Assembly (NCBI RefSeq): GCF_026262505.1
Contig: NC_067208.1
Location: 12,285,962-12,349,961 of the forward strand
Direction of reading: 5' to 3'
Length of the DNA: 64,000 nucleotides
DNA from: Trichomonas vaginalis G3
Lineage: Eukaryota > Parabasalia > Trichomonadida > Trichomonadidae
Shown here one piece after another: positions 2,337-53,070 of the stretch. The notes beneath the pieces are model-generated. The model did no database searches and was not told the DNA's origin. It saw only the letters and a program-made list of their open reading frames with translations. The first letter of the stretch is position 1. Each line of letters starts with the position of its first letter. The translations under genes and the position numbers were made by a program.

Positions 2337-2439
2337 TTAGTAGTTTAATCTATCACCAAGCATAAATTTAAATAAATATCTTTTGCTGTCATGACTGCAT
2401 TGTATTCCAGTCATATTTGAAAGTATGGAATGAACTTAA

Positions 2440-5619: not shown

Positions 5620-6137
5620 TAAGTAAGCAGAATGTGAGATGACACAATATAAATTTTCATTTGATAGATTATATGTTAACATATTGGTCTTTTTGATATC
5701 ACAATATAAATCTTCGTTTGATAGATTTAATATTTGATAATAAATATTCATATTGCTGTAAATATATATCTACCATTGAGACTTCCAATTCCCAGAATTT
5801 ATATATATAATTAATTAATTTCTGGGTCCCAGTCCCAAAATTTAATTTCCAATTTAAAATTACATGAAAGGGTCTATTTGAATTACAATATATAAAATGC
5901 TATTATATCAAATGAATTCGACAAAAATATGTGGAAATCAAAACACTCAAATGACACGAAAAAAAATCTCAAATTGCATTTTAAAATGATTTTTGCAGTA
6001 TGATCAAATGTTATTTATTAAATATATGTGTTAGTTTAGATTCTCTGTGGAGAACTATAATTATGGTTGTAGTCGTTCTTTGTTCTTTCAAAAAACTAAT
6101 GCATTTTACAATTGTTATAGTATTTAATTAAAAACAT
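5620..6137. other. Intergenic spacer between convergent genes
   Basis: AT-rich, no gene. Two direct copies of CACAATATAAATnTTCnTTT followed by GATAGATT lie at about 5644 and 5699. Confidence 0.4.
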
Positions 6138-9100
6138 TTAAACTACAAAATATAAAATGACAACAAATATAAGTGCTATCATTAATAATATAACAAATGA
6201 AAGACCATAGACTTTGCTCCTTTTCTGCTGAATTGCAGATGTTTGTTCATTTTTGTTCTCAACTTTAGAAATAGGATTCTCAAGTTCAGGAGAAAGAAGA
6301 ATTCGCCTCTTCCTGACTTGTTCACTCAATGCGAACTTGTCTTCATTTATTGGCTGATACTTCGGCGGATTGTTTTTGTTTTCGTTGTCTGAACTCTCCA
6401 TCTTTGCACTAGATGAATCTGAACCAAGTCCAAGTGGAGATGTCAAACTAGAATTCCAAATAGGAACTTCTGAAAACTTTTCAGTCTTCACGGAATTCTC
6501 ATCAATCTTGGATTTGCTTTTCTGTGGAATATCTTTTTGGTCACTGTCAAAACCGCTGTCTTCTGTAGAATCAATTCCAATCAACTTCTGTTTTCCTAAA
6601 TTCATCAAATGATTGAAATTGGAAACAGGAGTTTGCGAGGAAGGATTGAACTGGTCTGGATGAAGCTGGAACTGACTAATCGGAAGAACAAATTCATGTG
6701 AAATGGTTTCTTTTGTGTCACTTTTTTCATCGTTAGTTTTCACTTCACTTTCTTCATGATGAACTGAATTCGAATTTTGAGAAGATTTCGGAGGTTGGAA
6801 AATTTCATCTTCTCTTGTTTCTTTGAAAACAGGAGGTGTGAAAGTGATGATTTCTTCTTTCTGCTGGTTGACAGGTGGTTTAAATATATTCAATGTCGTT
6901 GCAAAAGAAGAAAGAGGCTTCGAAGGAATAAATGTGCCATTTTGTGTTCGAGAAATAGGTTGGAAATCGAAATTTGACAACTTTACACCGGATGTTTGAC
7001 CATTTTGGAAAAAAGTTGTTCTTGAATCTTCCTGGAGATCATCTGGATTAAATACAAGTGATCTTGTCTTGTTCTGGATTGTCTCTCCTGTTGCTAATGT
7101 GATTCCATGAGAGCCAATTGTGATTTCTTTCTCTTTTTCTGGTGGGTTTTCTTCGTTTTGTTGGTGTTCGTTAGTTTTCGGTTTGGAAAGGTCTGAAACA
7201 ATGATGTTTAAGTCTGTTCTCCGCTCAACAACAACATTCTCGCCTGTTGTGACTTTCTGGACATTTGGATTAGATAAATTTATCTTCTTTTTCTTTGGAA
7301 TCTGTAATTCTTTGGCAACAATTGATTTTTTGACTGTATAGTCCTTCTTTCCTGTGGATTCTTCTTGCTTGATCTGTTCTTCTTCTTCACTGTGCTCTAT
7401 TTCTTGCTCAGGATAGTCATCTAAGTTGATTTCTTCTTCTGGATTCTGAATTGGAGGTTGGAAATGGGGAAATCCTTGGTTTTGTGGGGGAGGAACAAAG
7501 AAACTGTTGTTATATTGCATGGGATATGGTTGTTGGACTGGAATTTGGAATTGATTTGGATTTTGCATCTGAAATTGGTTCTGATTCTGAATAAAGTTCT
7601 GGTTTTGCATATTGAATTGGTTCTGCATAGGATATTGCATCTGATTTTGCATTGGAAACTGGTTTTGCATGGGAAATTGCATTTGATTCTGAATATTATA
7701 TGGAACTTGGTACTGATTTTGAACCATTTGACCTTGGATGAACTGGTTTGGTTGTTGCATCATCATTTGGCCTTGGTTTGGAACCATTTGTGGATTTTGT
7801 ATCATTTGTTGGTTTTGTTGAACGAATTGACCCTGTGGAACTTGTTGTGGAGGCATCACATTGGTCATTTGTTGAGGAATCATTTGGTTTTGTTGGAATT
7901 GTGGATTTGGTATTTGAGATATTTCCAGATTTTGTGGATTCTGCTGTTCAGGTTGGGTTACTTCAACAAGATGTTCTGATTTCGGAGGTTTTTCAACAGA
8001 AATTTTGCCATCTTTTGTTTCATTTGATTTTTGTTGCTGATTTACTTCTTTTTTAGCATTTGCTGGTTCTTGATTGTTCTTTTTAGCTGGTTTTGCTGCA
8101 ATATGCTTCTTCTCAGCCTTTGATTTTGAAATAATTTTGAAATTTTTAATAACTTTTTCTTCTGCATCAGCAATATCATCAGGATCGATTTCAAGCATTT
8201 CTTTGATCATTTCCTTTGGAATTCCGTTAATTATTTCAGCAGTTCTATCATCTTTGAAACAATCACTGACTTCTGAAGGTAATTCCATGGCATTCTCCTT
8301 TCTGAGCAGCATAAAGTCACTGTATGGATCGAAATTATCATCATCGTCCGCATCTTCTTGAAGATATTTTGATGAAGATTCAGATTGTTCGGTTGGCATC
8401 TCTTCTTCCTCGCCAATTACAATTTCCTTCTGACCAATAGTCGAAAACATGTAGTCTGGGAGCTTTCCGGACTCTTCTTTTTCTAATACATAAGATTGAC
8501 CTTGTGAATAGACAGAAATTGGTTCAGGACCTTCTATGACGTCCACAAGTATCTCATCTGGATCTGGCTGTGGGAAGTTTTTGAATTTCTCAGCTGCTTC
8601 AGGTGATGGCGGCGAAATTACTATTTGTTGGCCTTCATCGTCAACTTTTCTTTCAATTTCTTGCTCGTGGTCGATCTTTTCTTCATCGTTTTTCTCAATT
8701 TCGTTAATTTCAGGAATATCTTGCTTTTCTTCTTGTTTTTGCTGAGAAACTTCGTCAGGAACCTCTGTATGTATTGTTTCCGTTGATATCATTGGGGAAT
8801 CTTTCTCTTCAATTAACTTATTTAATTCATGAATGATTTCATCGCTTGGAACTGGTTGATTTTCAAAAACAACCTCTTTCTTGGGTTTCTCTTGCACTTC
8901 CTGTAGAATTTCGATGTCTTTTTCTGCTTTTTCGACAACAATTGAAGGAATATTTTCATTTTCTTGAGAAACTTGATTTTCTTCTTGTTTTACGTCTTGT
9001 TTCTTCTTTTCTATTGGTTGTTGTGTTACAATTTGAACGTTGAAGTCTCGTTTTTCGAGTTTTTTAACTTTCAAAGATTCTCCATTTTGAACAGCTCTTT

Positions 9101-12035: not shown

Positions 12036-13112
12036 TATATATTTATATATGTATATTTATATATGTATATTTATATATGTATATTTATATATGTATATTT
12101 ATATATGTATATTTATATATGTATATTTATATATGTATATTTATATATGTATATTTATATATGTATATTTATATATGTATATTTATATATGTATATTTAT
12201 ATATGTATATTTATATATGTATATTTATATATGTATATTTATATATGTATATTTATATATGTATATTTATATATGTATATTTATATATGTATATTTATAT
12301 ATGTATATTTATATATGTATATTTATATATGTATATTTATATATGTATATTTATATATGTATATTTATATATGTATATTTATATATGTATATTTATATAT
12401 GTATATTTATATATGTATATTTATATATGTAATTTATATATGTATATTTATATATGTATATTTATATATGTATATTTATATATGTATATTTATATATGTA
12501 TATTTATATATGTATATTTATATATGTATATTTATATATGTATATTTATATATGTATATTTATATATGTATATTTATATATGTATATATTTATATATGTA
12601 TATTTATATATGTATATTATATATGTATATTTATATATGTATATTTATATATGTATATTTATATATATATATTTATATATGTATATTTATATATGTATAT
12701 TTATATATGTATATATTTATATATGTATATATTTATATATGTATATATTTATATATGTATATATTTATATATGTATATATTTATATATGTATATATTTAT
12801 ATATGTATATATTTATATATGTATATATTTATATATGTATATATTTATATATGTATATATTTATATATGTATATATTTATATATGTATATATTTATATAT
12901 GTATATATTTATATATGTATATATTTATATATGTATATATTTATATATGTATATATTTATATATGTATATTTATATATGTATATATTATATATATATTTA
13001 TATATGTATATATTTATATATGTATATATTTATATATGTATATATTTATATATGTATATATTTATATATGTATATATTTATATATGTATATATTTATATA
13101 TGTATATATTTA
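12036..13112. repeat. AT minisatellite, 14-bp then 16-bp units
   Basis: A nearly perfect array of TATATGTATATTTA (14 bp) to about 12700, followed by the 16-bp variant TATATGTATATATTTA to about 13110, with a few phase slips. None of the three plus frames contains a stop, which gives long spurious frames of Tyr, Ile and Phe ([12 protein letters not shown]). These are not genes. Confidence 0.97.
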
Positions 13113-16561: not shown

Positions 16562-18106
16562 ATGTCCAATCAAGACATTCGTCCAATCAAATACAGTGAA
16601 CTGAGAAGTGTTATTCAATATCATATTGATTCATATAATGCATTGTATCAGTTAAAAATTGACAGAGAAGAAGATTTAAACTCAATTTACAAAATGATCA
16701 AAACAGAGCTGATTGATTCAAAGAAACATCCTCCCGAAAATATTATAAAAGACATTTTAAATATCATTGAGTACAATAATCGGTATACAAAGTCATACTT
16801 GAAACTTGCAAAACTCATTTCTGATGATTATCATGTAACAGATGTTTCTAATATTACAAATCTTTCTAACTACCTCTTTTATGAAGAATATGGAATTAAT
16901 TTGGACAAAACAAAAAAATTCGAAACAATTAACATACAAAACCTCAAAATTCATTCAGAAGATACAATTTTCAGAGCAATTATGGATAATGACTTAGAAA
17001 AATTCATTGCATTCACTGAAAGACAAGGATTTGATAAAGATCAAAAACTCAAGAGTAATTTGTATCCATATTCATCCTGGGGACATTCATTACTTGAATT
17101 ATGTTGTTACCATGGAGCAGTTGATTGTTTCAAGTTCTTAAGAACAGAATTTAAATCAGCAATAACTGATACATGTCTCAAATTTTCATTTTTAGGAAGA
17201 AGTAAAGAGAACTTGAGTGAATGTTTGAAATATCTGAAACCAAATGAATTTTGCATGAGATACGCAATTATTTCACACAACATTGATTTTGTTACATTTC
17301 TGATGAATGAATATAGTTTATATATCGACTTAGAATACTGTGCCGAACATAACAATATTGAATCATTTTTAGTATATTTTGATCAAACTAATGATGTTGA
17401 CAAATGTTTTGTTTATTCACCTATGTTTAATATTCCATCCTTTTGTGAATATTTCCTTTCACGTTGTAAATATATCAATACAAGAGTTAATGGATTAACA
17501 GCTCTTCACAGTACGACATGGAATAATTGTAAAGAAATTGCCGAACTTCTCATTTCGCATGGCGCATATGTCGATGTGAAAGACAACAATAAAAAAACCG
17601 CTCTTCATTATGCAGCATTGAATAATAGTAAAGAAATAGTCGAACTTCTCATTTCGCATGGTTCAGATATCAACGAAAAAGATAATTCCGGAAAAACCGC
17701 TCTTCATTATGCAGCACAAAAAGATTATAAAGAAATAGTCGAAATTCTTATTTCACATGGTGCAGATATCAACGAAAAAGATAATTCTGGGAAAATCTCT
17801 CTTCATTATGCAGCATGGAATAATTGTAAAGAAACTGTTGAACTTCTTATTTCACATGGTGCAAATATCAATGAGAAAGATGAAGATGGAAAAATCGCTC
17901 TTCATTATGCAGCACAGAAAGATTATAAAGAAATAGTCGAAGTTCTTATTTCACATGGTACAAATATCAATGAGAAAGATAATTCTGGAGAAACCGCTCT
18001 TCATTATGCAGAATGTAATCGTTGTAGAAAAACTGCCGAAGTTCTTATTTCGCATGGTGCAAATAGCTCTGATTGTAAAAACAAAGATATTTTTTGCCTA
18101 ATTTAA
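16562..18106 (+). CDS. Ankyrin-repeat protein (DUF3447-type), copy 1, 514 aa
   Basis: The intact member of a duplicated pair. Residues 1-310 form the trichomonad N-terminal region (MSNQDIRPIKYSELRSVIQY, HSLLELCCYHGAVDCFKFLR, EFCMRYAIISHNIDFVTFLM). Residues from about 313 carry six canonical ankyrin repeats of the form TALHYAAxNNxKEIxELLIS + HGADINEKD. The tail (SSDCKNKDIFCLI) has Cys at position -3, not -4, so it is not a CaaX box. Copy 2 (minus strand, 25891-30911) has the same N-terminus but ten repeats and is interrupted by transposons. This copy serves as the uninterrupted reference. Homology extends about 120 bp upstream and 75 bp downstream. Confidence 0.88.
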   Translation: MSNQDIRPIKYSELRSVIQYHIDSYNALYQLKIDREEDLNSIYKMIKTELIDSKKHPPENIIKDILNIIEYNNRYTKSYLKLAKLISDDYHVTDVSNITNLSNYLFYEEYGINLDKTKKFETINIQNLKIHSEDTIFRAIMDNDLEKFIAFTERQGFDKDQKLKSNLYPYSSWGHSLLELCCYHGAVDCFKFLRTEFKSAITDTCLKFSFLGRSKENLSECLKYLKPNEFCMRYAIISHNIDFVTFLMNEYSLYIDLEYCAEHNNIESFLVYFDQTNDVDKCFVYSPMFNIPSFCEYFLSRCKYINTRVNGLTALHSTTWNNCKEIAELLISHGAYVDVKDNNKKTALHYAALNNSKEIVELLISHGSDINEKDNSGKTALHYAAQKDYKEIVEILISHGADINEKDNSGKISLHYAAWNNCKETVELLISHGANINEKDEDGKIALHYAAQKDYKEIVEVLISHGTNINEKDNSGETALHYAECNRCRKTAEVLISHGANSSDCKNKDIFCLI

Positions 18107-25890: not shown

Positions 25891-27788
25891 CTAGATATTT
25901 GCACCATGTGAAATAAGAACTTCGGCAATTTCTTCAAAATTTTTAATTGTTGCAATTTGAAGTGCGGTTTGTCCAGAGTTATCTTTCTCATTGATATTTG
26001 CGCCATGTAAAATAAGAAGTTCTGTCATTTCTTTAGGATAATAGCATGCTGCATGAAGAAGAGCGGTCTGTCCAGAATTATCTTTTTCGTTGATATTTGC
26101 ACCATGTGAAATGAGAAGTTCGGCTGTTTCTTTACAATTATTCCATGCTGCATGATGAAGAAGCGGTTTTCCTTCTTTATCTTTCTCATTGATATTTGCG
26201 CCATGTGAAATAAGAAATTTGGCGGTTTCTTTACTATTTCCTACTGTTGCATTATGAAGAGCAGTTTGTCCAGAATTATCTTTTTCGTTGACATTTGCAC
26301 CATGTGAAATAAGAAGTTCTGCTGTTTCTTTACAATTTTTACGTGCCGCATAATGAAGAGCAGATTGTCCAGAATTATTTTTTTCGTAGATATTTGCAAC
26401 ATGTGAAATAAGAAGTTCTGCCGTTTCTTTACTATTATATTCTGCTGCAAGATGAAGGGCGGTTTTTCCGTTGTTTTCCTTCTCATTGATATTTGCACCA
26501 TGTGAAATAAGGAGGTCGACTATTTCTTTACAATTTTTACGCGATGCATTATGAAGAGCGGTCTGTCCAGAATTATCTTTTTCGTTGATATCTGCACCAT
26601 GTGAAATGAGAAGTTCGGTTATTCCTTTACTATTATTCAATGCTGCAATATGAAGAGCGGTTTGTCCATAACTATCTTTTTCATTGATGTTTGCGCCATG
26701 TGAAATAAGAACATCGGCTTTTTCTTTACTATTATTCAATGCTGCATAATGAAGAGCGGTTTTACCATTGTTGTCTATCACATCAACAAATATGCCATGT
26801 GAAATAAGAAGTTCAGTTATTTCTTTACAATTATTCCATGTCGTACGGTGAAGAGCTGTTAATCCATTAACTCTTATATTGACATGATAACAACGTGAAA
26901 GGAAATATTCACAAAAGGATGGAATATTAAACATAGGTGAAAAAACAAAACATTTGTCAACATAATGGTTTCGATCGAAATATACTAAAAATGATTCAAT
27001 ATTGTTATGTTCGGCACAGTATTCTAAGTCGATATATAAACTATATTCATTCATCAGAAATGTAACAAAATCAATGTTGTGTGAAATAATTGCGTATCTC
27101 ATGCAAAATTCATTTGGTTTCAGATATTTCAAGCATTCACTCAAGTTCTCTTTACTTCTTCCTAAAAATGAAAATTTGAGACATGTATCAGTTATTGTTG
27201 ATTTAAATTCTGTTCTTAAGAACTTGAAACAATCAACTGCTCCATGGTAACAACATAATTCAAGTAATGAATATCCTTCATAAGAAGATGGATATAAATT
27301 GCTTTTGAGATTTTGATCTTTATCAAATCCTTGTCTTTCAGTGAATGCAATGAATTTTTCTAAGTCATTATCCATAATTGCTTTGAAAATTGTATCTTCT
27401 GAATGAATTTTGAGATTTTGTAGGTTATTTGTTTCTAAATTTTTTGTTTTGTCCAAATTAATTCCATATTCTTCATAAAAGAGGTAGTTAGAAAGATTCG
27501 TAATATTAGATACATCTGTTACATGATAATCATCAGAAATGAGTTTTGCAAGTTTCAAGTATGACTTTGTATACCGATTATTGTACTCAATGATATTTAA
27601 AATGTCTTTTATAATATTTTCGGGAGGATGTTTCTTTGAATCAATCAGCTCTGTTTTGATCATTTTGTAAATTGAGTTTAAATCTTCTTCTCTGTCAGTT
27701 TTTAACTGATACAATGCATTATATGAATCAATATGATATTGAATAACACTTCTCAGTTCACTGTATTTGATTGGACGAATGTCTTGAT
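25891..27788 (-). pseudogene. Ankyrin-repeat gene, copy 2, body separated from its start by transposons
   Basis: Near-identical to copy 1 (16562-18106) in the N-terminal region (DIRPIKYSELRSVIQYHIDS and onwards), but with ten ankyrin repeats instead of six (TALHNASRKNCKEIVDLLIS-type), ending ISHGANI at 25891. In copy 1 the protein begins MSNQDIRP. Here the codons after Asp5 are present at 27788 and below, while ATGTCCAATCAAGAC lies at 30897-30911, 3.1 kb away. The intervening DNA is a nested transposon cluster, and a stop (TAG) lies in frame just inside it. The gene is therefore disrupted unless translation begins internally, for example at the in-frame ATG near 27664. Confidence 0.88.
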
Positions 27789-28671
27789 AAAGGTGACCAA
27801 ACTATTTTTTGAAAGTCCGCCATAACTTTAATGGTACTATTTCAGCGTGTACAATGAATACAAAAATTCTAAGAGTGCCACATAAAATAGTACTTTAGAC
27901 TTAAGTTAATGCTACCAAGCAAATGTTAAAAAGATGACTTTAGTGTTTTGATAATCAAAGATTAAAATCATTATTGTCTAAATCAATAATCATAACGACA
28001 GAAGTTAATGTTTTTTCATCAGTGCTTTAAATCCACTTTTAAAAGTATACCTCAAAAATCAAAATATCAAAAAAAATTGGCCGATAGGTTTGGCTTTAAT
28101 TTTTGTCTGCTTTTATGATTTGATATGGATGTTATAATTTTAAAAGTTGAGCCAAATTCACCAATAGATTTTTGAGATTTGCAAATACTCAATAATTTTC
28201 AGCGTGTTATCTTTTATTAAAAGAACTATTTGGTTTCAGTATCATATAAATTGATATTTACTTTCTATTTGAACCTTCATTTAGCTAATGATTTAATAAT
28301 ACAGATTTCATCTAGTCCTTATAAGAGAATTTTGAATTTGTTATAATAAAAAAACAAACAGATATAGCTTACACTTCTATAATAAAGATACCTTTTATAG
28401 AAATCAGTATGAAATGTGTTTTGGCTTATTGGAAGCATATCAGACATAATCGCCATAATCAAAAAATCTATATACCCAATAAGTAATAAATTTGTCGATA
28501 TAGATTTTCCATAAAATTAGTTTTAGGGTTGTTAAAAATATCAAAAATTAGCGTTTTGAAGACACCATGGTGTCTTATAATTTTCCCTTCCTTATTGGCG
28601 TGTAGAAATAAATGCGCCAATAGATTGAAGAAGAAGAATTGTTTTTCTCTTAATGAACTTTAATCATTTTG

Positions 28672-30321
28672 ATATAAGAATATTGAAAACATTAATATAA
28701 TTTCGATTTCGGAAATTAAATTTCCAAATTTTTTGTCGATTTCGGAAATAACAGGATCCCGCATCCAACACGCAACAACAAAACACAAAACACACTTTTT
28801 GGTTCTTTCATCGTTTTAATCGTAATTTATGTAATACATGATTTGGATAAATTTTACAAAAATAGAACCTATATTATATTCTTTTCAAAGATTCTTACAA
28901 ATCATCAAAAATAATTGTATTTTAAAAAACGATCAAATTATCCTTTCATTATTTTAAACTTAAATTAGTTTTTATGATTGACTAAGGGTTTCGTTTTGCG
29001 AAAAAACGTACAATACGCAATTTCGCTAAAAAACATTTCGCTAGCAATTTCGACCTTTGACTCCACTCAAGACGTCACTTTTTTAATTTTGCGGTATCAT
29101 ATTTTTGGAAAATCTTTATGAATATTATATAAAAAGTCTCTTTAATATCTATATTTCATATTTTTATCGATTTTTAAAGTTTTTGCGAAAAGTATTCAAT
29201 TATTTTTGCTATTTTGTCGGGTAAATGTCAGATTTGCGACATTTTCTGATATGATATTCAGATTCTACGTTGATAATAATGCTCATAGAACCCTCTTGCT
29301 ATTGTGTCAAAATTGCGAAACCGATAGCAAAAATATCTCGCAATATCAAAATTGAGATATTGAGTGAATTATGCATTATAGAGATTAAAAATCTGATTTG
29401 TGAAAACATCTCATCAGTTTCTAGCTAATTCAAAAATCTTTACTATCTTATTCGATTAAAATGAAAAGGGAATAGTTTCATTATGCTTTAAATGACAGCC
29501 TTATAATATAATCATAGTTTTCGCTCAATATGCAGCATTTTTTTTTCGAAATCTATGGTCAATGTCCTAAATACTGATTGCTTTGCATTCATATCTCTTA
29601 CATTTTCTATACCCACATCACTATTCATTGCTATTCCTATCTTTTTCATTTTTGTTTGTTTCTCATAATTTCTCAAAAAACACGATAACTTGATATTTGT
29701 AAATATCATACTTTATAACGTAAATAAGAACTTGACCTATTAAGAAAAGCAGTAATGAAAAGAAAATCTGAAATTCATAAAAATTACAAGTTTCTGATGA
29801 CAATTAGCTTAATTAAACCAGGTACAAGATTATATAATTGTATTTTCTATCCAATTATCCATATAATATCTTATCCAGAAAAAATAACTTGATCAATACC
29901 AAATGATTTTTTAACTAGTAAATAAAGTATTTTCTTTACACACACATTGTATATCATAGTTTTTTTTTTTTTGGTTTCGCAAAACATCCAAAAACAAATA
30001 TGCTATAAAAGTGACAATTTTAGCAAAACGAAACCCTTAGATTGACTAAAGCAATCATATTTATTCATCATTAAATAAACAAAAAATAATATTTGAGAGT
30101 TATTTCAAAAAAAACACATTGAATTTATTAATTTGTCTCAATTTCAGTATTATAAATTTTTATAATTTCAATATTTTGAAATACACTTTTTAATATTTCA
30201 ATATTTATGATATTTCAATGTATTAAGTGGTCTCAAATTGAGCTTCTCAAATATAAGTTGGCCTATTCAAATAATAAAATTAAATAATATTTAAAATAAT
30301 AAATAAAAGTGATTGAGGTCA
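28672..30321. mobile_element. Insertion C within element B
   Basis: About 1.65 kb absent from the intact MITE copy, where GAACTTTA joins directly to AGCAAAACGG. Its ends (ATCATTTTGATATAAG and GATTGAGGTCAT) are not clear inverted repeats and no target duplication longer than a base is seen. It carries element D. No coding capacity seen. Confidence 0.6.
28985..30039. mobile_element. Element D: AGGGTTTCGTTTTGC transposon, innermost
   Basis: TAAGGGTTTCGTTTTGC at 28983 is repeated inverted, without mismatch, ending at 30039. A 9-bp direct repeat GATTGACTA flanks it (28976-28984 and 30040-30048). About 1.05 kb, no gene longer than about 65 codons, so non-autonomous. The first bases (AGGGTT) are shared with element B. 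Confidence 0.82.
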
Positions 30322-30896
30322 TAGCAAAACGGCTGTTTCAGTCATTAATTCTTAAAAATAAAAAGGGTAAAAACTAAATAAAATGGGTAAAATTCAATAG
30401 TGTCTGTGCTATCGTTCAATTTGAAGGTGTCTTTTGAAACCGCAAGACACATTGAATTTTTGAATAGTGTATTATGGTTTGACAGACACCAATGAAAAAA
30501 ATAAAATGATATTTATTTTAAATATATAAGATCCTTATATAAAATATAAATATTTTATCGTTTTATTTTCTTGTTTTAGAAATGTTTTTTATTGAAAAAT
30601 CAATAAAACTAACTCCAAAATAAAATTTTTGATCTAAAGACACTATGATGACACCAGGCAAATCTTCCAAGACACCTATCGTCGGGAATCTAACAACCCT
30701 AATTAGTTTTTAGTCTGATCTTAAAATAAATTTAATTTTTTATAAAAAAAATCACATTTAAAAGTACCTTTTTAGTAGCTCGAAATCCTGTTGGTGGATT
30801 TCGGGCGTACTTCAAAATTAGCTTTTCTTCTACATATGCAAGCTATATTTTAAATATGGGGCAAATCGGATCGGCGAAAGGAGTTTAGTTACCTTT

Positions 30897-30911
30897 GTCT
30901 TGATTGGACAT
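30897..30911 (-). pseudogene. Severed start (five codons) of ankyrin copy 2
   Basis: ATGTCCAATCAAGAC, identical to the start of copy 1, stranded upstream of element A. The promoter-side flank up to about 31025 also matches the upstream flank of copy 1 in inverted orientation. Confidence 0.9.
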
Positions 30912-33097: not shown

Positions 33098-34486
33098 CTA
33101 CTTCTTTATTATCTTCAATCTCATTCTAGCAGCTCTCGCATCTTTTACTTCCTTCATTAATTCAGGCAAGTATTTTTCCAACCAAATTTCTGGTTTATTT
33201 TGTAATGTAGATTCATAATTTTTTGATTGTTTTTCCAGAGAATTGATTAAATCTTTGGCATCTTGGAACGTTTCAAGATTATAAAGCAGTTTTACGACTA
33301 AAACTGCTTTATTTTTATCGTCAATATCAATAAATTCTGCGTATTTTGATATTTCGATCGGCGAACTCTTTTCTTTGTGATCCACGAGTTCATCCTGATC
33401 ACCTACATTTTTATCGATTGGGAATTCTATGATTTCACCTACGTTTTCTCCTATTTTCATAACATGTATGCCTGCAAAGGGAACATGACTCTTATTCATA
33501 AAGAAATCCTTGCAATATTTACAAGGATTCTTATCAGTATTAATATCATTATAGGAGAATCCGCAATGTATGCATTTTTCGTTTAACAAGTCATTCTTCT
33601 CGCGTTTTTGCTTATTAATGGGATCAATTGATTCATTAATCCTAATGATAGTATCATTCAGAATGAAATTGATCAAAGTAGAAAAGTTTCTTGCTTTTTT
33701 TTGCAAGTTCGTTAATGTGTCTATGCTTACCCTCTGCACTATTATTAGTGCTTATAGGTGGAATGCGGTGGTATGCTGCTAAATGCTCTTGATCTTTATA
33801 TATCTGCTTCCATTTTTCCAGCTGCTCATCTGATATATTCTTTGTAGCATACATTTTCTGAACCGATGGATCAAAACATTTGTAATTGTCCTCAAAATCT
33901 TGTGCCGATTTTGATAATAATACTATCAGAGCAAAAACATGTAGTAAAGTATTATTGCCCATGGTTCCGAGATAGTGCCTAATACAGATATAATTTTGGA
34001 AATGATTCGTATTCAAAAATTTTAAAACTCCAGTACCTAAATCGCTCATCCATTTGATTCTTGAAAAGTGCTCCATAATGTTTAATGATTTAAATTCAAT
34101 ATTCATGGCTGTAAGCCACCGTTGATAAGCAGCTGATGATTTGCTGCGCCCTATGTATATCCCTAGAGGGTAACCTCGCATATAGTAATTACCACGAGGA
34201 AAAATAAATATATATTTCGGCCATGAAAAAGTAGCATCTAAGTGAATTAAATTACACTCCAACGCCAAATTTCCTGATTCGCTTGGAATATATATAAGAA
34301 ATTCTATAGGATTTCCATTGACGAATAAACTATCACTTCTTATCGTTGTGCTATAATTTACATAAAAAATTTCCCGGGATATGAAGTTAAGATATCACCA
34401 ATCTCATTATCATGCTTTATTTTTTCCTGTATTTCATCTTGCAGAGGATGTCCTGGAGATCAACTTTCGTTATTTGAATGTACCAT
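33098..34486 (-). pseudogene. Mutator-like (MULE) transposase pseudogene
   Basis: The central frame carries the MULE catalytic core: LIHLDATFSWPKYIFIF (first Asp), GYPLGIYIGRSKSSAAYQRW, WMSDLGTGVLKFL (second Asp), YICIRHYLGTMGNN (C..H) and ISTNNSAEGKHRHI (NNxxEG). The next frame gives a C-terminal Cys cluster (CIHCGFSYNDINTDKNPCKY + C). It is broken three times: TGA at 34460-34462 after MVHSNNES, a frame change near 34361-34370, and another in a T8 run at 33694-33701 (seven would restore the frame). It lies near the left inverted repeat block (32837-33000), as transposases usually do. Function: cut-and-paste transposition, now dead unless the breaks are sequencing errors. Confidence 0.72.
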
Positions 34487-37049: not shown

Positions 37050-39252
37050 TGTCAAACCGTCAGTCATATTGTCAGTCAAAACGTCAGTCATGTTGTCACT
37101 CAAACTATCAGTCTTATTCTCACTAAAACCATCAGTCATACACTCTCTTAAACTATGAGTCATATTGTCACCCAAACTCTCAGTCATATTCTAAATAAAA
37201 CCGTAAGTCATAGAGGCTGTCAAACCGTCAGTCATATTGTCGGTCAAACTCTCAGTCATATTGTCACTCAAACTGTCAGTCTTACTCTCAATAAAAAACT
37301 AATTCATAGTGTCTGTCAAACCACAGTCATATTGTCACTCAAACTGTCAGTAATATTCTAATTAAAGCCGTCAGTCATATTGTCAGTCAAACTGTAAGTC
37401 ATACACTCACTCAAATCAACAATCATATTGTCACTCAAACTATCAGTCTTATTCTCACTAAAACCGTCAGTCATATTGTCAGTCAAATCGTCAGTCATAT
37501 TGTCAGTCAAACTGTCAGTCATTCACTCACTCAAATCAACAGTCATATTGTCACCCAAACTGTCAGTCTTATTCTCACCCAAACCGACAGTCATATATTC
37601 ATTCAAATTAGCAGTCATATTGTCACCCAAACTGTCAGTCTTATTCTCACTAAAACCGTCAGTCATATTGTCAGTCAAACCGTCAGTCATATTGTCAGTC
37701 AAACTGTCAGTCATTCACTCACTCAAATCAACAGTCATATTGTCACCCAAACTGTCAGTCTTATTCTCACCCAAACCGACAGTCATATATTCATTCAAAT
37801 TAGCAGTCATATTGTCACCCAAACTGTCAGTCTTATTCTCACTAAAACCATCAGTCATACACTCTCTTAAACTATGAGTCATATTGTCACCCAAACTCTC
37901 AGTTATATTCTAAATAAAACCGTAAGTCATAGAGGCTGTCAAACCGTCAGTCATATTCTAACTAAAAAGCTAATTCATAGTGTGTGTCAAACCATCAGTC
38001 ATATTGTCACTCAAATTGTCAGTCTTATTCTAACTAAAAAGCTAATTCATAGTGTCTGTCAAACCGAAGTCATACACTCACTCAAATCAACAGTCATATT
38101 GTCACCCAAACTGTCAGTCTTATTCTAACTAAAACCATCAGTCATACACTCTCTTAAACTATGAGTCATATTGTCACCCAAACTCTCAATCATACACTCA
38201 CTCGAATCAACAGTCATAGTGTCTGTCAAACCACAGTCATATTGTCAGTCAAACTATCAGTCATATTCTAACTAAAACTGTAAGTCATCGTGTGTGTCAA
38301 ACAGTCAGTCATATTGTCAGTCAAACTTTCAGTCATACACTCACTCAAATCAACAGTCATATTGTCATTCAAACTATCAGTCTTATTCTCACTAAAACCG
38401 TAATTCATATTTTCACTCAAACCGTCAGTCATATTGTCATTAAAACGGTCAGTCATACACTCACTCAAATCAACAGTCATATTGTCAGTCAAACTATCAG
38501 TCTTATCCTAACTAAAACCATCAGTCATACACTCTCTTAAACTATGAGTCATATTGTCACCCAAACTCTCAATCATACACTCACTCAAATCAACAGTCAT
38601 ATTGTCAGTCAAACCGTCAGTTATATTGTCACTCAAACTGTCAGTCTTATTCTAACTAAAAAGCTAATTCATAGTGTGTGTTAAACTGTCAGTCATATTG
38701 TCACTCAAACTGTCAGTCTTATTCTAACTAAAACCGTAAGTCATAGTGTGTGTCAAACCGTCAGTCATATTGTCAGTCAAACTGTCAGTCATTCACTCAC
38801 TCAAATCAACAGTCATATTGTCAGTCAAACTATCAGTCTTATCCTAACTAAAACCATCAGTCATACACTCTCTTAAACTATGAGTCATATTGTCACCCAA
38901 ACTCTCAATCATACACTCACTCGAATCAACAGTCATATTGTCAGTCAAACCGTCAGTTATATTGTCACTCAAACTGTCAGTCTTATTCTAACTAAAACCG
39001 TAAGTCAAAGTGTCTGTCAAACCGTCAGTCATATTCTCAGTCATACTGTAGTTCATACTATCACCCAAACTGTTGTTCATACTGTCACTCAAACTCTAAG
39101 TCATATTGTCAGTCAAACTGTGAGTCATATTCTCTCTCAAACCTTGAGTTATACTGACAACCAAACCCTCATTCAAAATGTCACTCAAACTGTCAGTTAT
39201 ATTCCTAGACACATTCAAACTTTCAGGCATATTGTCAGCCAGATACTCAGTT
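37050..39252. repeat. 24-bp minisatellite (AAACTGTCAGTCATATTGTCAGTC)
   Basis: About 90 variable copies of CTGTCAGTCATATTGTCACT. The 24-bp unit is a whole number of codons, so open frames appear on both strands (SVILSVKL on plus; NMTDGLTD on minus). They are interrupted by variants, have no non-repeat domain and are not called as genes. Confidence 0.93.
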
Positions 39253-39878: not shown

Positions 39879-39887
39879 GTTTACTTT

Positions 39888-40404
39888 AGGGTTGTTAGAT
39901 TCCCGACGATAGGTGTCTTGGAAGATTTGCCTGGTGTCATCATAGTGTCTTTAAATCAAAAATTTTATTTTGGAGTTAGTTTTATTGATTTTTCAATAAA
40001 AAACATTTCTAAAACAAGAAAATAAAACGATAAAATATTTATATTTTATATAAGGATCTTATATATTTAAAATAAATATCATTTTATTTTTTTCATTGGT
40101 GTCTGTCAAACCATAATACACTATTCAAAAATTCAATGTGTCTTGCGGTTTCAAAAGACACCTTCAAATTGAACGATAGCACAGACACTATTGAATTTTA
40201 CCCATTGTATTTAGTTTTTACCCTTTTTATTTTTAAGAATTAATGACTGAAACAGCCGTTTTGCTTAAAGTTCATTAAGAGAAAAACAATTCTTCTTCTT
40301 CAATCTATTGGCGCATTTATTTCTACACGCCAATAAGGAAGGGAAAATTATAAGACACCATGGTGTCTTCAAAACGCTAATTTTTGATATTTTTAACAAC
40401 CCTA
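39888..40404. mobile_element. AGGGTTGTTA-type MITE, intact copy (517 bp)
   Basis: Ends AGGGTTGTTAGATTCCCG and TTTTTAACAACCCTA, flanked by 9-bp GTTTACTTT at 39879-39887 and 40405-40413. It is collinear, inverted, with the two halves of element B. Subterminal GACACCATGGTGTC and GGTGTCTT motifs are present. No coding region. The 9-bp duplication suggests mobilisation by a Mutator-like transposase. Confidence 0.92.
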
Positions 40405-43246: not shown

Positions 43247-46200
43247 GATCCTTACCTAAGTCATTGACTCATCCTTACCTCAGACAAAAAGTCATCCTTA
43301 CCTCAGTTATTGACTCATCCTTACCTCAGTCATAGACTCATCCTTACCTCAGTCATTGACTCATCCTTACCTCAGACAAAAATTCATCCTTACCTCAGAC
43401 AAAAATTCATCCTTACCTCAGACAACAACTCATCCTTACCTCAGTCATTGACTCATCCTTACCTCAGTTATTGACTCATCCTTACCTCAGTCATAGACTC
43501 ATCCTTACCTCAGACAAAAAGTCATCCTTACCTCAGTTATTGACTTATCCTTACCTCAGTCATTGACTCATCCTTACCTCAGTCATAGACTCATCCTTAC
43601 CTCAGTCATTGACTCATCCTTACCTCAGTTATTGACTCATCCTTACCTCAGACATATACTCATCCTTACCTCAGACAAAAAGTCATCCTTACCTCAGTTA
43701 TTGACTCATCCTTACCTCAGTCATAGACTCATCCTTACCTCAGTCATTGACTCATCCTTACCTCAGACAAAAATTCATCCTTACCTCAGACAAAAATTCA
43801 TCCTTACCTCAGACAACAACTCATCCTTATCTCAGTCATTGACTCATCCTTACCTCAGTCATTGACTCATCCTTACCTCAGACAACAACTCATCCTTACC
43901 TCAGTCATTGACTCATCCTTACCTCAGTCATTGACTCATCCTTACCTCAGACATATACTCATCCTTACCTCAGACAAAAAGTCATCCTTACCTCAGTTAT
44001 TGACTCATCCTTACCTCAGTCATAGACTCATCCTTACCTCAGTCATTGACTCATCCTTACCTCAGACAAAAATTCATCCTTACCTCAGACAAAAATTCAT
44101 CCTTACCTCAGACAACAACTCATCCTTATCTCAGTCATTGACTCATCCTTACCTCAGTCATTGACTCATCCTTACCTCAGACAAAAATTCATCCTTACCT
44201 CAGTCATTGACTCATCCTTACCTCAGTCATTGACTCATCCTTACCTCAGTCATTGACTCATCCTTACCTCAGACAAAAATTCATCCTTACCTCAGACAAA
44301 AATTCATCCTTACCTCAGACAACAACTCATCCTTATCTCAGTCATTGACTCATCCTTACCTCAGTCATTGACTCATCCTTACCTCAGACAACAACTCATC
44401 CTTACCTCAGTCATTGACTCATCCTTACCTCAGTCATTGACTCATCCTTACCTCAGACATATACTCATCCTTACCTCAGACAAAAAGTCATCCTTACCTC
44501 AGTTATTGACTCATCCTTACCTCAGTCATAGACTCATCCTTACCTCAGTCATTGACTCATCCTTACCTCAGACAAAAATTCATCCTTACCTCAGACAAAA
44601 ATTCATCCTTACCTCAGACAACAACTCATCCTTATCTCAGTCATTGACTCATCCTTACCTCAGTCATTGACTCATCCTTACCTCAGACAACAACTCATCC
44701 TTACCTCAGTCATTGACTCATCCTTACCTCAGACAAAAATTCATCCTTACCTCAGTCATAGACTCATCCTTACCTCAGTCATTGACTTATCCTTACCTCA
44801 GTCATTGACTCATCCTTACCTCAGTCATTGACTCATCCTTACCTTAGACAAAAAGTCATCCTTACCTCAGACAACAACTCATCCTTACTTCAGTCATAGA
44901 CTCATCCTTACCTCAGACAAAAAGTCATCCTTACCTCAGTCATTGACTCATCCTTACCTCAGTCATTGACTCATCCTTACCTCAGTCATTGACTCATCCT
45001 TACCTCAGACAAAAATTCATCCTTACCTCAGTCATAGACTCATCCTTACCTCAGTCATTGACTCATCCTTACCTCAGTCATTGACTTATCCTTACCTCAG
45101 TTATTGACTCATCCTTACCTCAGTCATTGACTCATCCTTACCTCAGACAAAAAGTCATCCTTACCTCAGTTATTGACTCATCCTTACCTCAGACAACAAC
45201 TCATCCTTACCTCAGTCATTGACTCATCCTTACCTCAGACAACAACTCATCCTTATCTTAGTCATTGACTCATCCTTACCTCAGACAAAAAGTCATCCTT
45301 ACCTCAGTCATAGACTCATCCTTACCTTAGACAAAAAGTCATCCTTACCTCAGTCATAGACTCATCCTTACCTCAGTCATTGACTCATCCTTACCTCAGT
45401 CATTGACTCATCCTTACCTCAGTCATAGACTCATCCTTACCTCAGTCATTGACTCATCCTTACCTCAGACAACAACTCATCCTTACCTCAGTCATTGACT
45501 CATCCTTACCTCAGACAAAAATTCATCCTTACCTCAGTCATTGACTCATCCTTACCTCAGTCATTGACTCATCCTTACCTCAGTCATTGACTCATCCTTA
45601 ACTCAGACAACAACTCATCCTTATCTCAGTCATTGACTCATCCTTACCTCAGTCATTGACTCAGTCATTGACTTATCCTTACCTCAGACAACAACTCATC
45701 CTTACCTCAGTCATAGACTCATCCTTACCTCAGACAAAAAGTCATCCTTACCTCAGTTATTGACTTATCCTTACCTCAGTCATTGACTCATCCTTACCTC
45801 AGACAACAACTCATCCTTACCTCAGTCATTGACTCATCCTTAACTCAGACAACAACTCATCCTTACCTCAGTCATTGACTCATCCTTACCTCAGTCATTG
45901 ACTCATCCTTATCTCAGTTATTAACTCATCATTACATCAGTCATTGACTCATCCTTACCTCAGTCATTGACTCATCCTTACCTCAGTCATAGACTCATCC
46001 TTACCTCAGACAAAAATTCATCCTTACCTCAGTCATTGACTCATCCTTACCTCAGTCATTGACTCATCCTTACCTCAGTCATTGACTCATCCTTAACTCA
46101 GACAACAACTCATCCTTATCTCAGTCATTGACTCATCCTTACCTCAGACAACAACTCATCCTTACCTCAGTCATTGACTCAGTCATTGACTTATCCTTAC

Positions 46201-49200
46201 CTCAGTCATTGACTTATCCTTACCTCAGTCATTGACTCATCCTTACCTCAGTCATGGACTCATCCTTACCTCAGTCATTGACTCATCCTTACCTTAGACA
46301 AAAAGTCATCCTTACCTCAGACAACAACTCATCCTTACCTCAGTCATAGACTCATCCTTACCTCAGACAAAAAGTCATCCTTACCTCAGTTATTGACTTA
46401 TCCTTACCTCAGTCATTGACTCATCCTTACCTCAGTCATTGACTCATCTTTACCTCAGTCATTGACTCATCCTTACCTCAGACAAAAATTCATCATTACC
46501 TCAGTCATAGACTCATCCTTACCTCAGTCATTGACTCATCCTTACCTCAGTCATTGACTTATCCTTACCTCAGTTATTGACTCATCCTTACCTCAGTCAT
46601 TGACTCATCCTTACCTCAGACAAAAAGTCATCCTTACCTCAGTTATTGACTCATCCTTACCTCAGACAACAACTCATCCTTACCTCAGTCATTGACTCAT
46701 CCTTACCTCAGACAACAACTCATCCTTACCTTAGTCATTGACTCATCCTTACCTCAGACAAAAAGTCATCCTTACCTCAGTCATAGACTCATCCTTACCT
46801 TAGACAAAAAGTCATCCTTACCTCAGTCATAGACTCATCCTTACCTCAGTCATTGACTCATCCTTACCTCAGTCATTGACTCATCCTTACCTCAGTCATA
46901 GACTCATCCTTACCTCAGACATTACCTCAGTCATTGACTTATCCTTACCTCAGTCATTGACTCATCCTTACCTCAGACAAAAATTCATCCTTACCTCAGT
47001 CATTGACTCATCCTTACCTCAGTCATTGACTCATCCTTACCTCAGTCATTGACTCATCCTTAACTCAGACAACAACTCATCCTTATCTCAGTCATTGACT
47101 CATCCTTACCTCAGTCATTGACTCAGTCATTGACTTATCCTTACCTCAGTCATTGACTTATCCTTACCTCAGTCATAGACTCATCCTTACCTCAGTCATA
47201 GACTCATCCTTACCTCAGTCATTGACTCATCCTTACCTCAGTCATTGACTCATCCTTACCTCAGACAACAACTCATCCTTACCTCAGTCATTGACTCATC
47301 CTTAACTCAGACAACAACTCATCCTTACCTCAGTCATTGACTCATCCTTACCTCAGTCATTGACTCATCCTTACCTCAGTATAACTCATCCTTACCTCAG
47401 TCATTGACTCATCCTTACCTCAGTCATTGACTCATCCTTACCTCAGTCATAGACTCATCCTTACCTCAGACAAAAATCATCCTTACCTCAGTCATTGACT
47501 CATCCTTACCTCAGTCATTGACTCATCCTTACCTCAGTCATTGACTCATCCTTACCTCAGACAACACTCATCCTTACCTCAGTCATTGACTCATCCTTAC
47601 CTCAGTCATTGACTCATCCTTACCTCAGTCATAGACTCATCCTTACCTCAGACAAAATCATCCTTACCTCAGTCATTGACTCATCCTTACCTCAGTCATT
47701 GACTCATCCTTACCTCAGTCATTGACTCATCCTTACCTTAGACTCATCCTTACCTCAGTCAACACTCATCCTTACCTCAGTCATAGACTCATCCTTACCT
47801 CAGACTCATCCTTACCTCAGTCATTGACTCATCCTTACCTCAGTCATTGACTCATCCTTACCTCAGTCATTGACTCAGTCATTGACTTATCCTTACCTCA
47901 GTCATTGACTTATCCTTACCTCAGTCATAGACTCATCCTTACCTCAGTCATAGACTCATCCTTACCTCAGTCATTGACTCATCCTTACCTCAGTCATGGA
48001 CTCATCCTTACCTCAGTCATTGACTCATCCTTACCTCAGACAACAACTCATCCTTACCTCAGTCATTGACTCATCCTTACCTCAGACAACAACTCATCCT
48101 TACCTTAGTCATTGACTCATCCTTACCTCAGACAAAAAGTCATCCTTACCTCAGACAACAACTCATCCTTACCTCAGTCATTGACTCATCCTTACCTCAG
48201 ACAAAAATTCATCCTTACCTCAGTCATAGACTCATCCTTACCTCAGTCATAGACTCATCCTTACCTCAGTCATTGACTCATCCTTACCTCAGTCATTGAC
48301 TCATCCTTACCTCAGTCATTGACTCATCCTTACCTCAGTCATTGACTCATCCTTATCTCAGTTATTAACTCATCATTACATCAGTCATTGACTCATCCTT
48401 ACCTCAGTCATTGACTCATCCTTACCTCAGTCATAGACTCATCCTTACCTCAGACAAAAATTCATCCTTACCTCAGTCATTGACTCATCCTTACCTCAGT
48501 CATTGACTCATCCTTACCTCAGTCATTGACTCATCCTTAACTCAGACAACAACTCATCCTTATCTCAGTCATTGACTCATCCTTACCTCAGACAACAACT
48601 CATCCTTACCTCAGTCATTGACTCAGTCATTGACTTATCCTTACCTCAGTCATTGACTTATCCTTACCTCAGTCATTGACTCATCCTTACCTCAGTCATG
48701 GACTCATCCTTACCTCAGTCATTGACTCATCCTTACCTTAGACAAAAAGTCATCCTTACCTCAGACAACAACTCATCCTTACCTCAGTCATAGACTCATC
48801 CTTACCTCAGACAAAAAGTCATCCTTACCTCAGTTATTGACTCATCCTTACCTCAGTCATTGACTCATCCTTACCTCAGTCATTGACTCATCCTTACCTC
48901 AGTCATTGACTCATCCTTACCTCAGACAAAAATTCATCATTACCTCAGTCATAGACTCATCCTTACCTCAGTCATTGACTCATCCTTACCTCAGTCATTG
49001 ACTCATCCTTACCTCAGTTATTGACTCATCCTTACCTCAGTCATTGACTCATCCTTACCTCAGACAAATCATCCTTACCTCAGTTATTGACTCATCCTTA
49101 CCTCAGTCAACACTCATCCTTACCTCAGTCATTGACTCATCCTTACCTCAGTCAACAACTCATCCTTACCTCAGTCATTGACTCATCCTTACCTCAGTCA

Positions 49201-50923
49201 AATCATCCTTACCTCAGTCATAGACTCATCCTTACCTTAGACAAAAAGTCATCCTTACCTCAGTCATAGACTCATCCTTACCTCAGTCATTGACTCATCC
49301 TTACCTCAGTCATTGACTCATCCTTACCTCAGTCATAGACTCATCCTTACCTCAGACATTACCTCAGTCATTGACTTATCCTTACCTCAGTCATTGACTC
49401 ATCCTTACCTCAGACAAAAATTCATCCTTACCTCAGTCATTGACTCATCCTTACCTCAGTCATTGACTCATCCTTACCTCAGTCATTGACTCATCCTTAC
49501 TCAGTCAAACTCATCCTTACCTCAGTCATTGACTCATCCTTACCTCAGTCATTGACGTCATCTTATCCTTACCTCAGTCATTGACTTATCCTTACCTCAG
49601 TCATAGACTCATCCTTACCTCAGTCATAGACTCATCCTTACCTCAGTCATTGACTCATCCTTACCTCAGTCATTGACTCATCCTTACCTCAGACAACAAC
49701 TCATCCTTACCTCAGTCATTGACTCATCCTTAACTCAGACAACAACTCATCCTTACCTCAGTCATTGACTCATCCTTACCTCAGTCATTGACTCATCCTT
49801 ATCTCAGTTATTAACTCATCATTACATCAGTCATTGACTCATCCTTACCTCAGTCATTGACTCATCCTTACCTCAGTCATAGACTCATCCTTACCTCAGA
49901 CAAAAATTCATCCTTACCTCAGTCATTGACTCATCCTTACCTCAGTCATTGACTCATCCTTACCTCAGTCATTGACTCATCCTTAACTCAGACAACAACT
50001 CATCCTTACCTCAGTCATTGACTCATCCTTACCTCAGTCATTGACTCATCCTTACCTCAGTCATAGACTCATCCTTACCTCAGACAAAAAGTCATCCTTA
50101 CCTCAGTCATTGACTCATCCTTACCTTAGTCATTGACTCATCCTTACCTCAGTCATTGACTCATCCTTACCTTAGACAAAAAGTCATCCTTACCTCAGAC
50201 AACAACTCATCCTTACCTCAGACAAAAAGTCATCCTTACCTCAGTTATTGACTTATCCTTACCTCAGTCATTGACTCATCCTTACCTCAGTCATTGACTC
50301 AGTCATTGACTTATCCTTACCTCAGTCATTGACTTATCCTTACCTCAGTCATAGACTCATCCTTACCTCAGTCATAGACTCATCCTTACCTCAGTCATTG
50401 ACTCATCCTTACCTCAGTCATTGACTCATCCTTACCTCAGTCATGGACTCATCCTTACCTCAGTCATTGACTCATCCTTACCTCAGACAACAACTCATCC
50501 TTACCTCAGTCATTGACTCATCCTTACCTCAGACAACAACTCATCCTTACCTTAGTCATTGACTCATCCTTACCTCAGACAAAAAGTCATCCTTACCTCA
50601 GACAACAACTCATCCTTACCTCAGTCATTGACTCATCCTTACCTCAGACAAAAATTCATCCTTACCTCAGTCATAGACTCATCCTTACCTCAGTCATAGA
50701 CTCATCCTTACCTCAGTCATTGACTCATCCTTACCTCAGTCATTGACTCATCCTTACCTCAGTCATAGACTCATCCTTACCTCAGACAAAAATTCATCCT
50801 TACCTCAGTCATTGACTCATCCTTACCTTAGTCATTGACTCATCCTTACCTCAGTCATTGACTCATCCTTAACTCAGACAACAACTCATCCTTATCTCAG
50901 TCATTGACTCATCCTTACCTCAG
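43247..50923. repeat. 23-bp minisatellite, 7.7 kb (TCATCCTTACCTCAGTCATTGAC)
   Basis: More than 300 copies of a 23-bp unit with a fixed CATCCTTACCTCAG core and a variable second half: GTCATTGACT, GTCATAGACT, GACAAAAAT/GT, GACAACAACT, GTTATTGACT. Blocks are duplicated at a higher order: the segment at 43862 recurs at 44368 (506 bp, 22 units), and the segment at 48066 recurs at 50513. Occasional 22-bp units and partial copies cause phase slips. Frames across it (THPYLSHRLILTSVIDSSLP) are by-products. Confidence 0.98.
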
Positions 50924-51072
50924 TCTCTCTCTTTGACATCCCACACTCAGTCTCTCTCTTTGACATCCAACACTCAGTCTCTCTTTGACATCCAACACTC
51001 AGTCTCTCTTTGACATCCAACACTCAGTCTCTCTTTGACATCCAACACTCAGTCTCTCTTTGACATCTAACA
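50923..51072. repeat. 25-27-bp repeat (CAGTCTCTCTTTGACATCCAACACT)
   Basis: Six tandem copies, the first two with an extra CT, joined directly to the end of the 23-bp array. Confidence 0.93.
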
Positions 51073-51375: not shown

Positions 51376-52155
51376 TAGGATGAGTCAATGACTGAGGTAA
51401 GGATGACTATTTGTCTGAGGTAAGGATGAGTCTATGACTGAGGTAAGGATGAGTCTATGACTGAGGTAAGGATGAATTTTTGTCTGAGGTAAGGATGAGT
51501 CTATGACTGAGGTAAGGATGACTTTTTGTCTAAGGTAATGATGAGTCTATGACTGAGGTAAGGATGACTTTTTGTCTGAGGTAAGGATGAGTCAATGACT
51601 AAGGTAAGGATGAGTTGTTGTCTGAGGTAAGGATGAGTCAATGACTGAGGTAAGGATGAGTTGTTGTCTGAGGTAAGGATGAGTCAATGACTGAGGTAAG
51701 GATGAGTCAATGACTGAGGTAAGGATGAGTCAATGACTGAGGTAAGGATGAGTCAATGACTGAGGTAAGGATGAGTCTATGACTGAGGTAAGGATGAGTA
51801 TATGTCTGAGGTAAGGATGACTTTTTGTCTGAGGTAAGGATGAGTCTATGTCTGAGGTAAGGATGAGTCAATGACTGAGGTAAGGATGAGTCAATGACTG
51901 AGGTAAGGATGAGTCTATGACTGAGGTAAGGATGAGTCAATAACTGAGGTAAGGATAAGTCAATGACTGAGGTAATGTCTGAGGTAAGGATGAGTCTATG
52001 ACTGAGGTAAGGATGAATTTTTGTCTGAGGTAAGGATGAGTCAATGACTGATGTAAGGATGAGTCAATGACTGAGGTAAGGATGAGTTGTTGTCTGAGGT
52101 AAAGATGACTTGTTGTCTCAGCTAAGGATGAGTTGTTGTATGAGGTAAGGATGAT
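51376..52155. repeat. Inverted arm of the 23-bp minisatellite
   Basis: The same unit as 43247-50923 but on the other strand (GATGAGTCAATGACTGAGGTAAG), about 34 copies with the same variant types. Together with the left array it forms a very large inverted repeat. Confidence 0.97.
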
Positions 52156-53070
52156 TTATTCTCTTCACTACCTATTACTGACGGGTCCATGGTAGTATTC
52201 ATTTTATTTTTATTGTTTTATTTTCCTTCAATTTCAACTCTAAGCATCAACTATCACACAATAGTTCCTCTACCTTACACCCAACCAATCCCATATTGAA
52301 TCTTAACTTTTCCTCCTGATATTGATAAAATAAATTTCAATTGTTCGTTTCCAGATCTTGTTAAAGAAAAAAAATTCACTCCTCTTAGATACAAAGAGAA
52401 CTACTCTATCTAAATTTTTCAAAAAATACATTTTCTTATTTTACATATTAAAAAGTACCAATTTTTATTTCAAAATTTGAAATTTATGATTTTTTTGGAA
52501 AACTTTTCGATTTTCTGACACGGTAGATGCTTTTTATTTTATACACTATGCCTAAAATTAATTTTCAAACTAAAAAAATCCTAATTAGATAATTTTTCAA
52601 ATATTTAATCAGTTAAATTGAATATTATTAAACTATGTTATTATTTAAATAATTTCCATCTTTTGTAATGCATCAGCACATTACCCGAAAACTTTTTAAT
52701 CATTCTAGAACAAACCAACATCGTATAATCCCATCATAGCTAATCATCCATTACAATTCTGCCTATTCAAGAGCTCGTGGTGAATTTCCTAAGTTCATTC
52801 CCATTCAAAATAAAGATATTCAACAAATTTCTTCCAAAAGAACTTCGTAAACTAACTAACAAGAATAACATCTTCCATTATTTTCAACATAAATACATTT
52901 TCAAAGAATAAAAAGTTCTTTAATGATTTTTTATTTGGTGAGAAATCTTGCAACATTATTCTTTCATACTCAACTTCAATACAACAACTAACATATGATA
53001 GTTGGAAAAAATCACATAATAGAGCAGGTAAGTATTGTGAAGCTGAACTTTTATTTATCTGGTGTGATAT
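52156..53070. other. AT-rich spacer
   Basis: No convincing gene or element seen. Confidence 0.45.

Follow-up and report, generated by a model that had tools for sequence, protein, structure and literature searches.

The 64,000-nucleotide stretch of Trichomonas vaginalis G3 DNA analysed here, referred to as the window (contig NC_067208.1, positions 12,285,962 to 12,349,961 of the forward strand), carries two ankyrin gene paralogues, one uninterrupted and the other cut after codon 5 by a nest of mobile elements. In the severed, minus-strand copy, the first 15 coding bases lie at 30897-30911 and the remainder runs from 27788. The DNA between the two parts very probably consists of three layers of recent, non-coding transposons, with element D inside the long form of element B (B-long) and B-long inside element A, in a nest that is otherwise ordinary. 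The features are collected in Table 1.

The severed gene and the layers of the nest

The paralogue reads ATGTCCAATCAAGACATTCG from 16562 without a break and differs from the severed copy by 3.8% over 930 compared bases. When its first part is used as a genome query, the alignment to the severed copy ends at 27788. The string GTCTTGAT stands on both sides of the break and once in the paralogue, and a duplicate of codons 4 and 5 and of the two final bases of codon 3 precedes the downstream part of the gene. The cut after codon 5 and the flanking repeat, both described in an earlier sequence-only reading of the window, are therefore confirmed.

The genome searched is the 180.85-Mb assembly of 86 contigs, in which the window lies on contig 6; six of the contigs met in the searches measure 20-40 Mb. 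The first look yielded 308 candidates for A, 527 for B, and 806 for D, and 40 loci were scored for each of these queries. We fetched 20 copies of each element from the scored loci, fixed the element ends from these copies, and counted target duplications between the ends so set. At the nest, the duplications measure 8 bp for A, 8 bp for B, and 7 bp for D. The sequence-only reading had given four layers, three of them with duplications of about 9 bp. Its 9-bp strings (ATTAGTTTT and GATTGACTA) are present, but in each the ninth letter comes from a conserved element end (TAGGG or TAAGGG), and the layers number only three, its “insertion C” being an internal part of B-long.

Element A is 922-923 bp long in all 20 fetched copies, 17 of which show a duplication of exactly 8 bp, with one of 9 bp, one of 7 bp, and one 4-bp match only. 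The 20 copies have 15 distinct duplication strings, and the 10 fetched B-long copies have 9 (those at L037 and L038 are the same). As some copies share their flanking context, the A and B-long copies do not all represent independent events. Compared with the majority sequence of 21 copies, the A in the window has a single difference over 922 positions, and the mean pairwise difference among these copies is 0.21%. Since the layers are near-identical to the other fetched copies, the nest is recent, and the duplication of the ankyrin gene, with its 3.8% divergence, predates it, provided that the two diverge at comparable rates.

Element B occurs in two forms, of 515-518 bp (B-short, 10 fetched copies) and 1,095-1,117 bp (B-long, 10 fetched copies). 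Duplications are exactly 8 bp in 18 of the 20 copies (one has 7 bp and one has none) and are also 8 bp at both B copies of the window and at L083 and L084. The 11-bp inverted ends, which read TAGGGTTGTTA at both ends, fall within the short ends of about 10-25 bp of hAT elements. The sequence of “insertion C” is found at the same place between the B ends in 10 of 10 B-long copies, all with 8-bp duplications, and its borders show no duplication beyond 1 bp. B-short joins the outer parts of B through a 1-bp overlap (28663 and 30323 in the window). The overlap and the lack of a target duplication indicate an internal deletion in B-short rather than an insertion, so that C is ruled out as a separate layer.

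The origin of B-long is indicated by a 3,573-bp coding element at another locus (L084:151-3723, duplication ACTATATT), which has a 731-aa frame and the same ends as B. Positions 1-756 and 752-1119 of B-long match its two sides, around that frame, at 98.9% and 99.5% identity and are joined through a 5-bp overlap (Table 1). With overlaps at both joins, B-long and B-short would represent two deletion steps from the coding element, and B-long reads as the non-coding internal-deletion form of a 3.6-kb hAT-type element.

Element D measures 1,051-1,061 bp in the fetched copies, with duplications of exactly 7 bp in 17 of 20 and none in three.

Table 1. Positions in the window of the gene parts, the elements, and their target duplications
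Feature	Position	Strand	Details
Severed ankyrin/DUF3447 gene, part after the break	25891..27788	-	Codon 6 on
Target duplication of A	27781..27788		GTCTTGAT, 8 bp; second copy 30897-30904
Layer 1, A with inserts	27789..30896	+	3,108 bp (922 bp without inserts); ends AAAGGTGACCAAACT / AAAGGTAACTAAACT
Target duplication of B	28516..28523		ATTAGTTT, 8 bp; second copy 30702-30709
Layer 2, B-long with D inside	28524..30701	+	2,178 bp; ends TAGGGTTGTTA
“Insertion C”, the B-long part missing from B-short	28664..30323	+	D within; 1-bp overlap at borders
Target duplication of D	28976..28982		GATTGAC, 7 bp; second copy 30040-30046
Layer 3, D	28983..30039	+	1,057 bp; ends TAAGGGTTTCGTTTTGC
Overlap joining the two ends of L084 in B-long	30334..30338	+	TGTTT, 5 bp
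Start of the severed gene (codons 1-5), beyond the nest	30897..30911	-	First 15 coding bases
Uninterrupted paralogue	16562..18106	+	514 aa
Free-standing B-short	39887..40404	-	518 bp; duplication GTTTACTT

Affiliation of the three elements

Through their coding relatives, B and D trace to hAT-type proteins. For B, a profile built from P0121, which is 99% identical to the 731-aa frame, and P0122 (30%) matches the hAT transposase Hermes with an E value of 5.5e-9. For D, the relative at L088 has 85-92% identity to the non-coding parts of D and an 839-aa frame, and a profile of the homologues of this protein also matches Hermes (E value of 7.5e-12). Four of its eight listed homologues have a precomputed PF05699 hAT domain, and a Foldseek search with the predicted model of P0123, representing the D relative, gives Hermes in 12 of 12 hits with an E value of 0.001 or less. 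L088 can therefore be regarded as a relative of D coding for a hAT transposase. Compared with each other, the protein profiles of B and D align over 346 columns with a probability of 99.5%. Neither the 731-aa nor the 839-aa frame matches the MULE domain (MULE, Mutator-like element; Pfam ID PF10551) up to an E value of 1. The 7-bp duplications of D agree with hAT, where 8 bp is found and 7 bp occurs in some annotated families; two other hAT elements of this genome (L077 and L078) likewise measure 7 bp, and hAT families with 7-bp duplications are present among Repbase entries.

Several observations weigh against a hAT origin of the nest. The 731-aa B frame alone stays under the Pfam hAT cut-off (E value of 0.15), and the predicted model of the B transposase was poor (predicted local distance difference test [pLDDT] score of 40) and was discarded. 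The 839-aa frame has no Pfam match of its own. L088 has the exact end of D on one side only, which makes it a relative and not the parent. The D-relative model has a mean pLDDT of 58, and its superpositions are loose, with template modelling scores of 0.36-0.38 by query and root-mean-square deviations of 11-23. Element A shows the 8-bp target duplication of hAT elements; duplications of this length are common to P and Merlin elements too and hence are not diagnostic of hAT for A, and its end, AAAGG, is at odds with the hAT end consensus. No coding relative with the ends of A was found among the 26 transposase loci covered by a non-exhaustive scan (16 MULE and 10 hAT or hAT-like), in which the 16 MULE and four hAT loci were scanned at 2 mismatches and L084-L088 and L091 at 2-3 mismatches.

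The genome searches for transposase domains gave 4 matches to hAT (Pfam ID PF05699), whereas for MULE (Pfam ID PF10551) all 150 scored loci match, of 687 candidates. The search for a coding relative of A gave no match to IS1595/Merlin (Pfam ID PF12762); that for the P type (Pfam ID PF21787) also gave none, and its controls were silent too, so this result is uninformative. When open stretches of at least 30 aa in A, B-long, and D were compared with 20 transposase loci as possible coding remnants, only resident B or D copies matched.

The sequence-only reading had attributed the nest to Mutator-like activity, with four successive in-place insertions of A, B, C, and D. MULE transposases are indeed common in this genome, T. 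vaginalis MULEs have been published (PMC2725143), and A itself could be a MULE. However, the duplications of 8, 8, and 7 bp contrast with the 10-14 bp given for TvMULEs in part of the table of that study, and none of the three layers has the duplications of at least 9 bp expected of a MULE. C is a constant part of the fetched B-long copies, the coding relatives of B and D are of hAT type, and none of the 16 fetched MULE loci has the A ends within 2 mismatches. We therefore regard this scenario as highly improbable, and the attribution to Mutator-like activity does not hold for B and D.

Several known systems come close to the elements of the nest. Non-autonomous hAT elements, such as the miniature inverted-repeat transposable elements (MITEs) that arise by internal deletion, for example BuT2 (PMC3942097), resemble them in their short ends (11-17 bp), in duplications of 8 bp, in large numbers of near-identical copies, and in an origin by deletion from coding elements of 2.5-5 kb, compared with 3,573 bp for B. 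D differs from the MITEs described there in its 7-bp duplications. Hermes, a hAT transposase of solved structure, is matched in profile and fold by the D relative and in profile by the coding relative of B, but the structural alignments show 14-18% identity. TvMULE1-4 (PMC2725143) are from the same species and have near-identical copies, like the elements of the nest; they differ in the duplications of 10-14 bp shown in part of the table and in their MULE transposases, whereas B and D are of hAT type. The families hAT.1, hAT.2, hAT.3N1, and P.1N1 tabulated in PMC7845603 come from the same species and are annotated as hAT or, going by the naming, as non-autonomous elements of the hAT and P groups. 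A, B, or D may equal some of these families or belong to the features classed there as “repeat unknown”, which number 43,572.

Some arrangements at other loci involve these elements. At L060, C2:4907727-4908035, C2:4952266-4952575, C2:4887589-4887898, and C5:3926470-3927531, a full D adjoins a shortened D piece in the opposite orientation; in four of these pairs the end piece, of about 310 bp, is almost identical, a pattern such as repair or the formation of a palindrome would leave. Locus L073 has two inverted MULE-type copies (1865-4289 and 4771-7191) with 99.6% identity, and a B-long begins where one of them ends. A B-like end in L073 was dropped as a candidate, as it sits in a repeated stretch there.

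The B(D) composite and the order of insertion

A query spanning the B/D junction found, among 40 scored of 941 candidates, one other locus with the full junction (L081). D lies in B at the same base there, B-long and D together measure 2,170 bp, and the flanks differ from those in the window. Positions 28523-30702 of the window align to positions 5318-3147 of the 9-kb L081 sequence; the similarity stops at the ends of B, and the two loci show no further match beyond the B copies. At L081, copies of AAATGGAA flank the element, and a single additional T separates repeat and element. Four B variants are exclusive to the window and L081 among 14 B-long rows, and two D variants are exclusive to them among 21 D rows, with a third found in one further row. 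The B parts of the two copies show no substitution over 1,111 positions, whereas the next nearest copy differs at 6 of 1,114.

Two points speak against this relationship. The L081 repeat is an 8-bp duplication only if the extra T is allowed, and the automatic count scores none. By raw distance, the window D differs from L081 at 4 of 1,051 positions and from L044 and L045 at 3 of 1,055. All four differences form one cluster in L081, at 29738-29742, and the nearest D to that of L081 is the one in the window. With a second locus sharing the same insertion base and private variants within other flanks, D most likely entered B once, and B with D inside, here B(D), would then have moved as a unit. 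A co-transposition was hypothesised by the authors of PMC2725143 for a repeat of unknown kind carrying TvMULE1, which would have transposed together with TvMULE1. Neither this nest nor the B(D) composite appears in the titles and abstract openings of the literature searched, which included few subscription journals.

A spread of B(D) by gene conversion or segmental duplication, instead of movement as a unit, would agree with the presence of duplicated DNA in this genome, where 5 of 20 A copies have the duplication AATTTTAT in common, along with the flank examined; different flanks would also result if a B(D) had converted a B-long already present at L081. But the similarity ends with B, the flanking repeats differ, and the private variants common to the two loci are spread over B-long on either side of D, so we consider this origin quite unlikely.

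The presence of the B(D) pair at another locus means that the layers need not have arrived singly, and the nest by itself does not establish the order A, B, C, D that the sequence-only reading took directly from it. The entry of D into B may have preceded that of B into A. It is also conceivable that A, then B-long, then D inserted in place and that B(D) later reached L081 from here. The nested position is as expected under this order. In comparison with the remaining B-long and D rows, no private substitutions are seen in the window copy, while L081 carries private changes, a small rearrangement and deletions. Nothing speaks decisively against it, but the data fit a B(D) formed elsewhere equally well: several differences between the two copies are single-base gaps, which are unsafe to polarise, and the larger number of changes in L081 is compatible with either direction. 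In-place insertion therefore stands as a serious possibility, somewhat short of an even chance.

In the sequence of events that we propose, A, 922 bp and non-coding, inserted after codon 5 and duplicated 8 bp, and B(D) would have entered A ready-made, a direction about evenly balanced with the reverse one. All three elements would have been moved by transposases supplied in trans.

The A/B junction offers a further view of the insertion of B. The junction query found two other full junctions (L082 and L083) among 40 scored of 560 candidates. In L083, an A copy (duplication GAATTTTC) carries an independent B-long, with the duplication ATTTTCCA, 12 bp from the site used in the window. In L082, a 210-bp fragment of the A/B junction (3972-4181) has one T fewer and derives from the same event or from one 1 bp away. 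Thus, three A/B junctions (window, L083, and L082) lie within 12 bp. Taken together, we tentatively suggest, with little short of even confidence, that B(D) is a mobile unit, in which D rides on the machinery of B and keeps its own ends, and that A contains a preferred landing place for B.

Both junction loci have features of their own. L083:1544-5497 is a second nest, which combines A and the independent B-long with two more inserts, of 1.75 kb and 0.13 kb. The L082 piece is cut at both sides and lies in unrelated DNA, resembling captured filler.

Fate of the gene and significance of the nest

The downstream frame of the severed gene is open to its stop codon. The next in-frame ATG, at 27663, corresponds to codon 45 and would give a 590-aa protein with ankyrin repeats and DUF3447. 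In the protein search with the downstream frame, the best of the 120 matches listed (of 6,839) has 67% identity over the whole query, and one more among those listed has 77% identity over 63% of the query. A match with 82% identity, for which no source is given, is presumably the paralogue in the window itself. These 120 matches include no near-identical copy without an interruption.

Short 5' untranslated regions are stated for genes of T. vaginalis in PMC7370421. Given these short regions and a start displaced by 3.1 kb, the promoter and the start codon of the severed gene were most likely lost together, and with them the full-length product. A living gene, in which the edge of A or a nearby start drives a protein from 27663 that lacks the first 44 residues, would explain why the 590-aa frame is open from codon 45 despite the 3.8% divergence from the paralogue. 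However, a recent insertion, as indicated by the 1 of 922 differences in A, explains the open frame equally well, and we regard continued expression as unlikely.

Elsewhere in the window, several tandem arrays are found. At 43248-50925, a 23-bp unit (ATCCTTACCTCAGTCATTGACTC) forms an array of 7.7 kb with a strong C-over-G skew. A further stretch of about 0.8 kb follows at 51377-52154, built from an almost identical unit in the opposite orientation; just past these arrays, at 53069-53718, are about 15 copies of a 43-bp unit with a 100% match. Positions 12038-13107 hold 73 copies of a 14-bp A/T-rich unit, where the open reading frames look like repeat artefacts, and a 2.2-kb array at 37052-39203 has units in multiples of about 24 bp that match at 71-75%. 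A 175-aa frame on the minus strand (33654-34181) has no Pfam match up to an E value of 0.01 and no NCBIfam match up to an E value of 0.1.

For the gene, the consequence is one broken member of a very large family: the genome search with the first part of the paralogue gave 1,155 first-look candidates, of which 40 were scored. For the genome, in which most annotated repeats are classed as unknown according to PMC7845603, the analysis provides clean boundaries for three many-copy, very young families, and B can be traced from a 3.6-kb coding element to a 1.1-kb and then a 0.5-kb form. The nest is a useful worked example in that nested layers appear able to travel together, so that the layers of a nest should be taken as a dated succession only after other copies have been checked.

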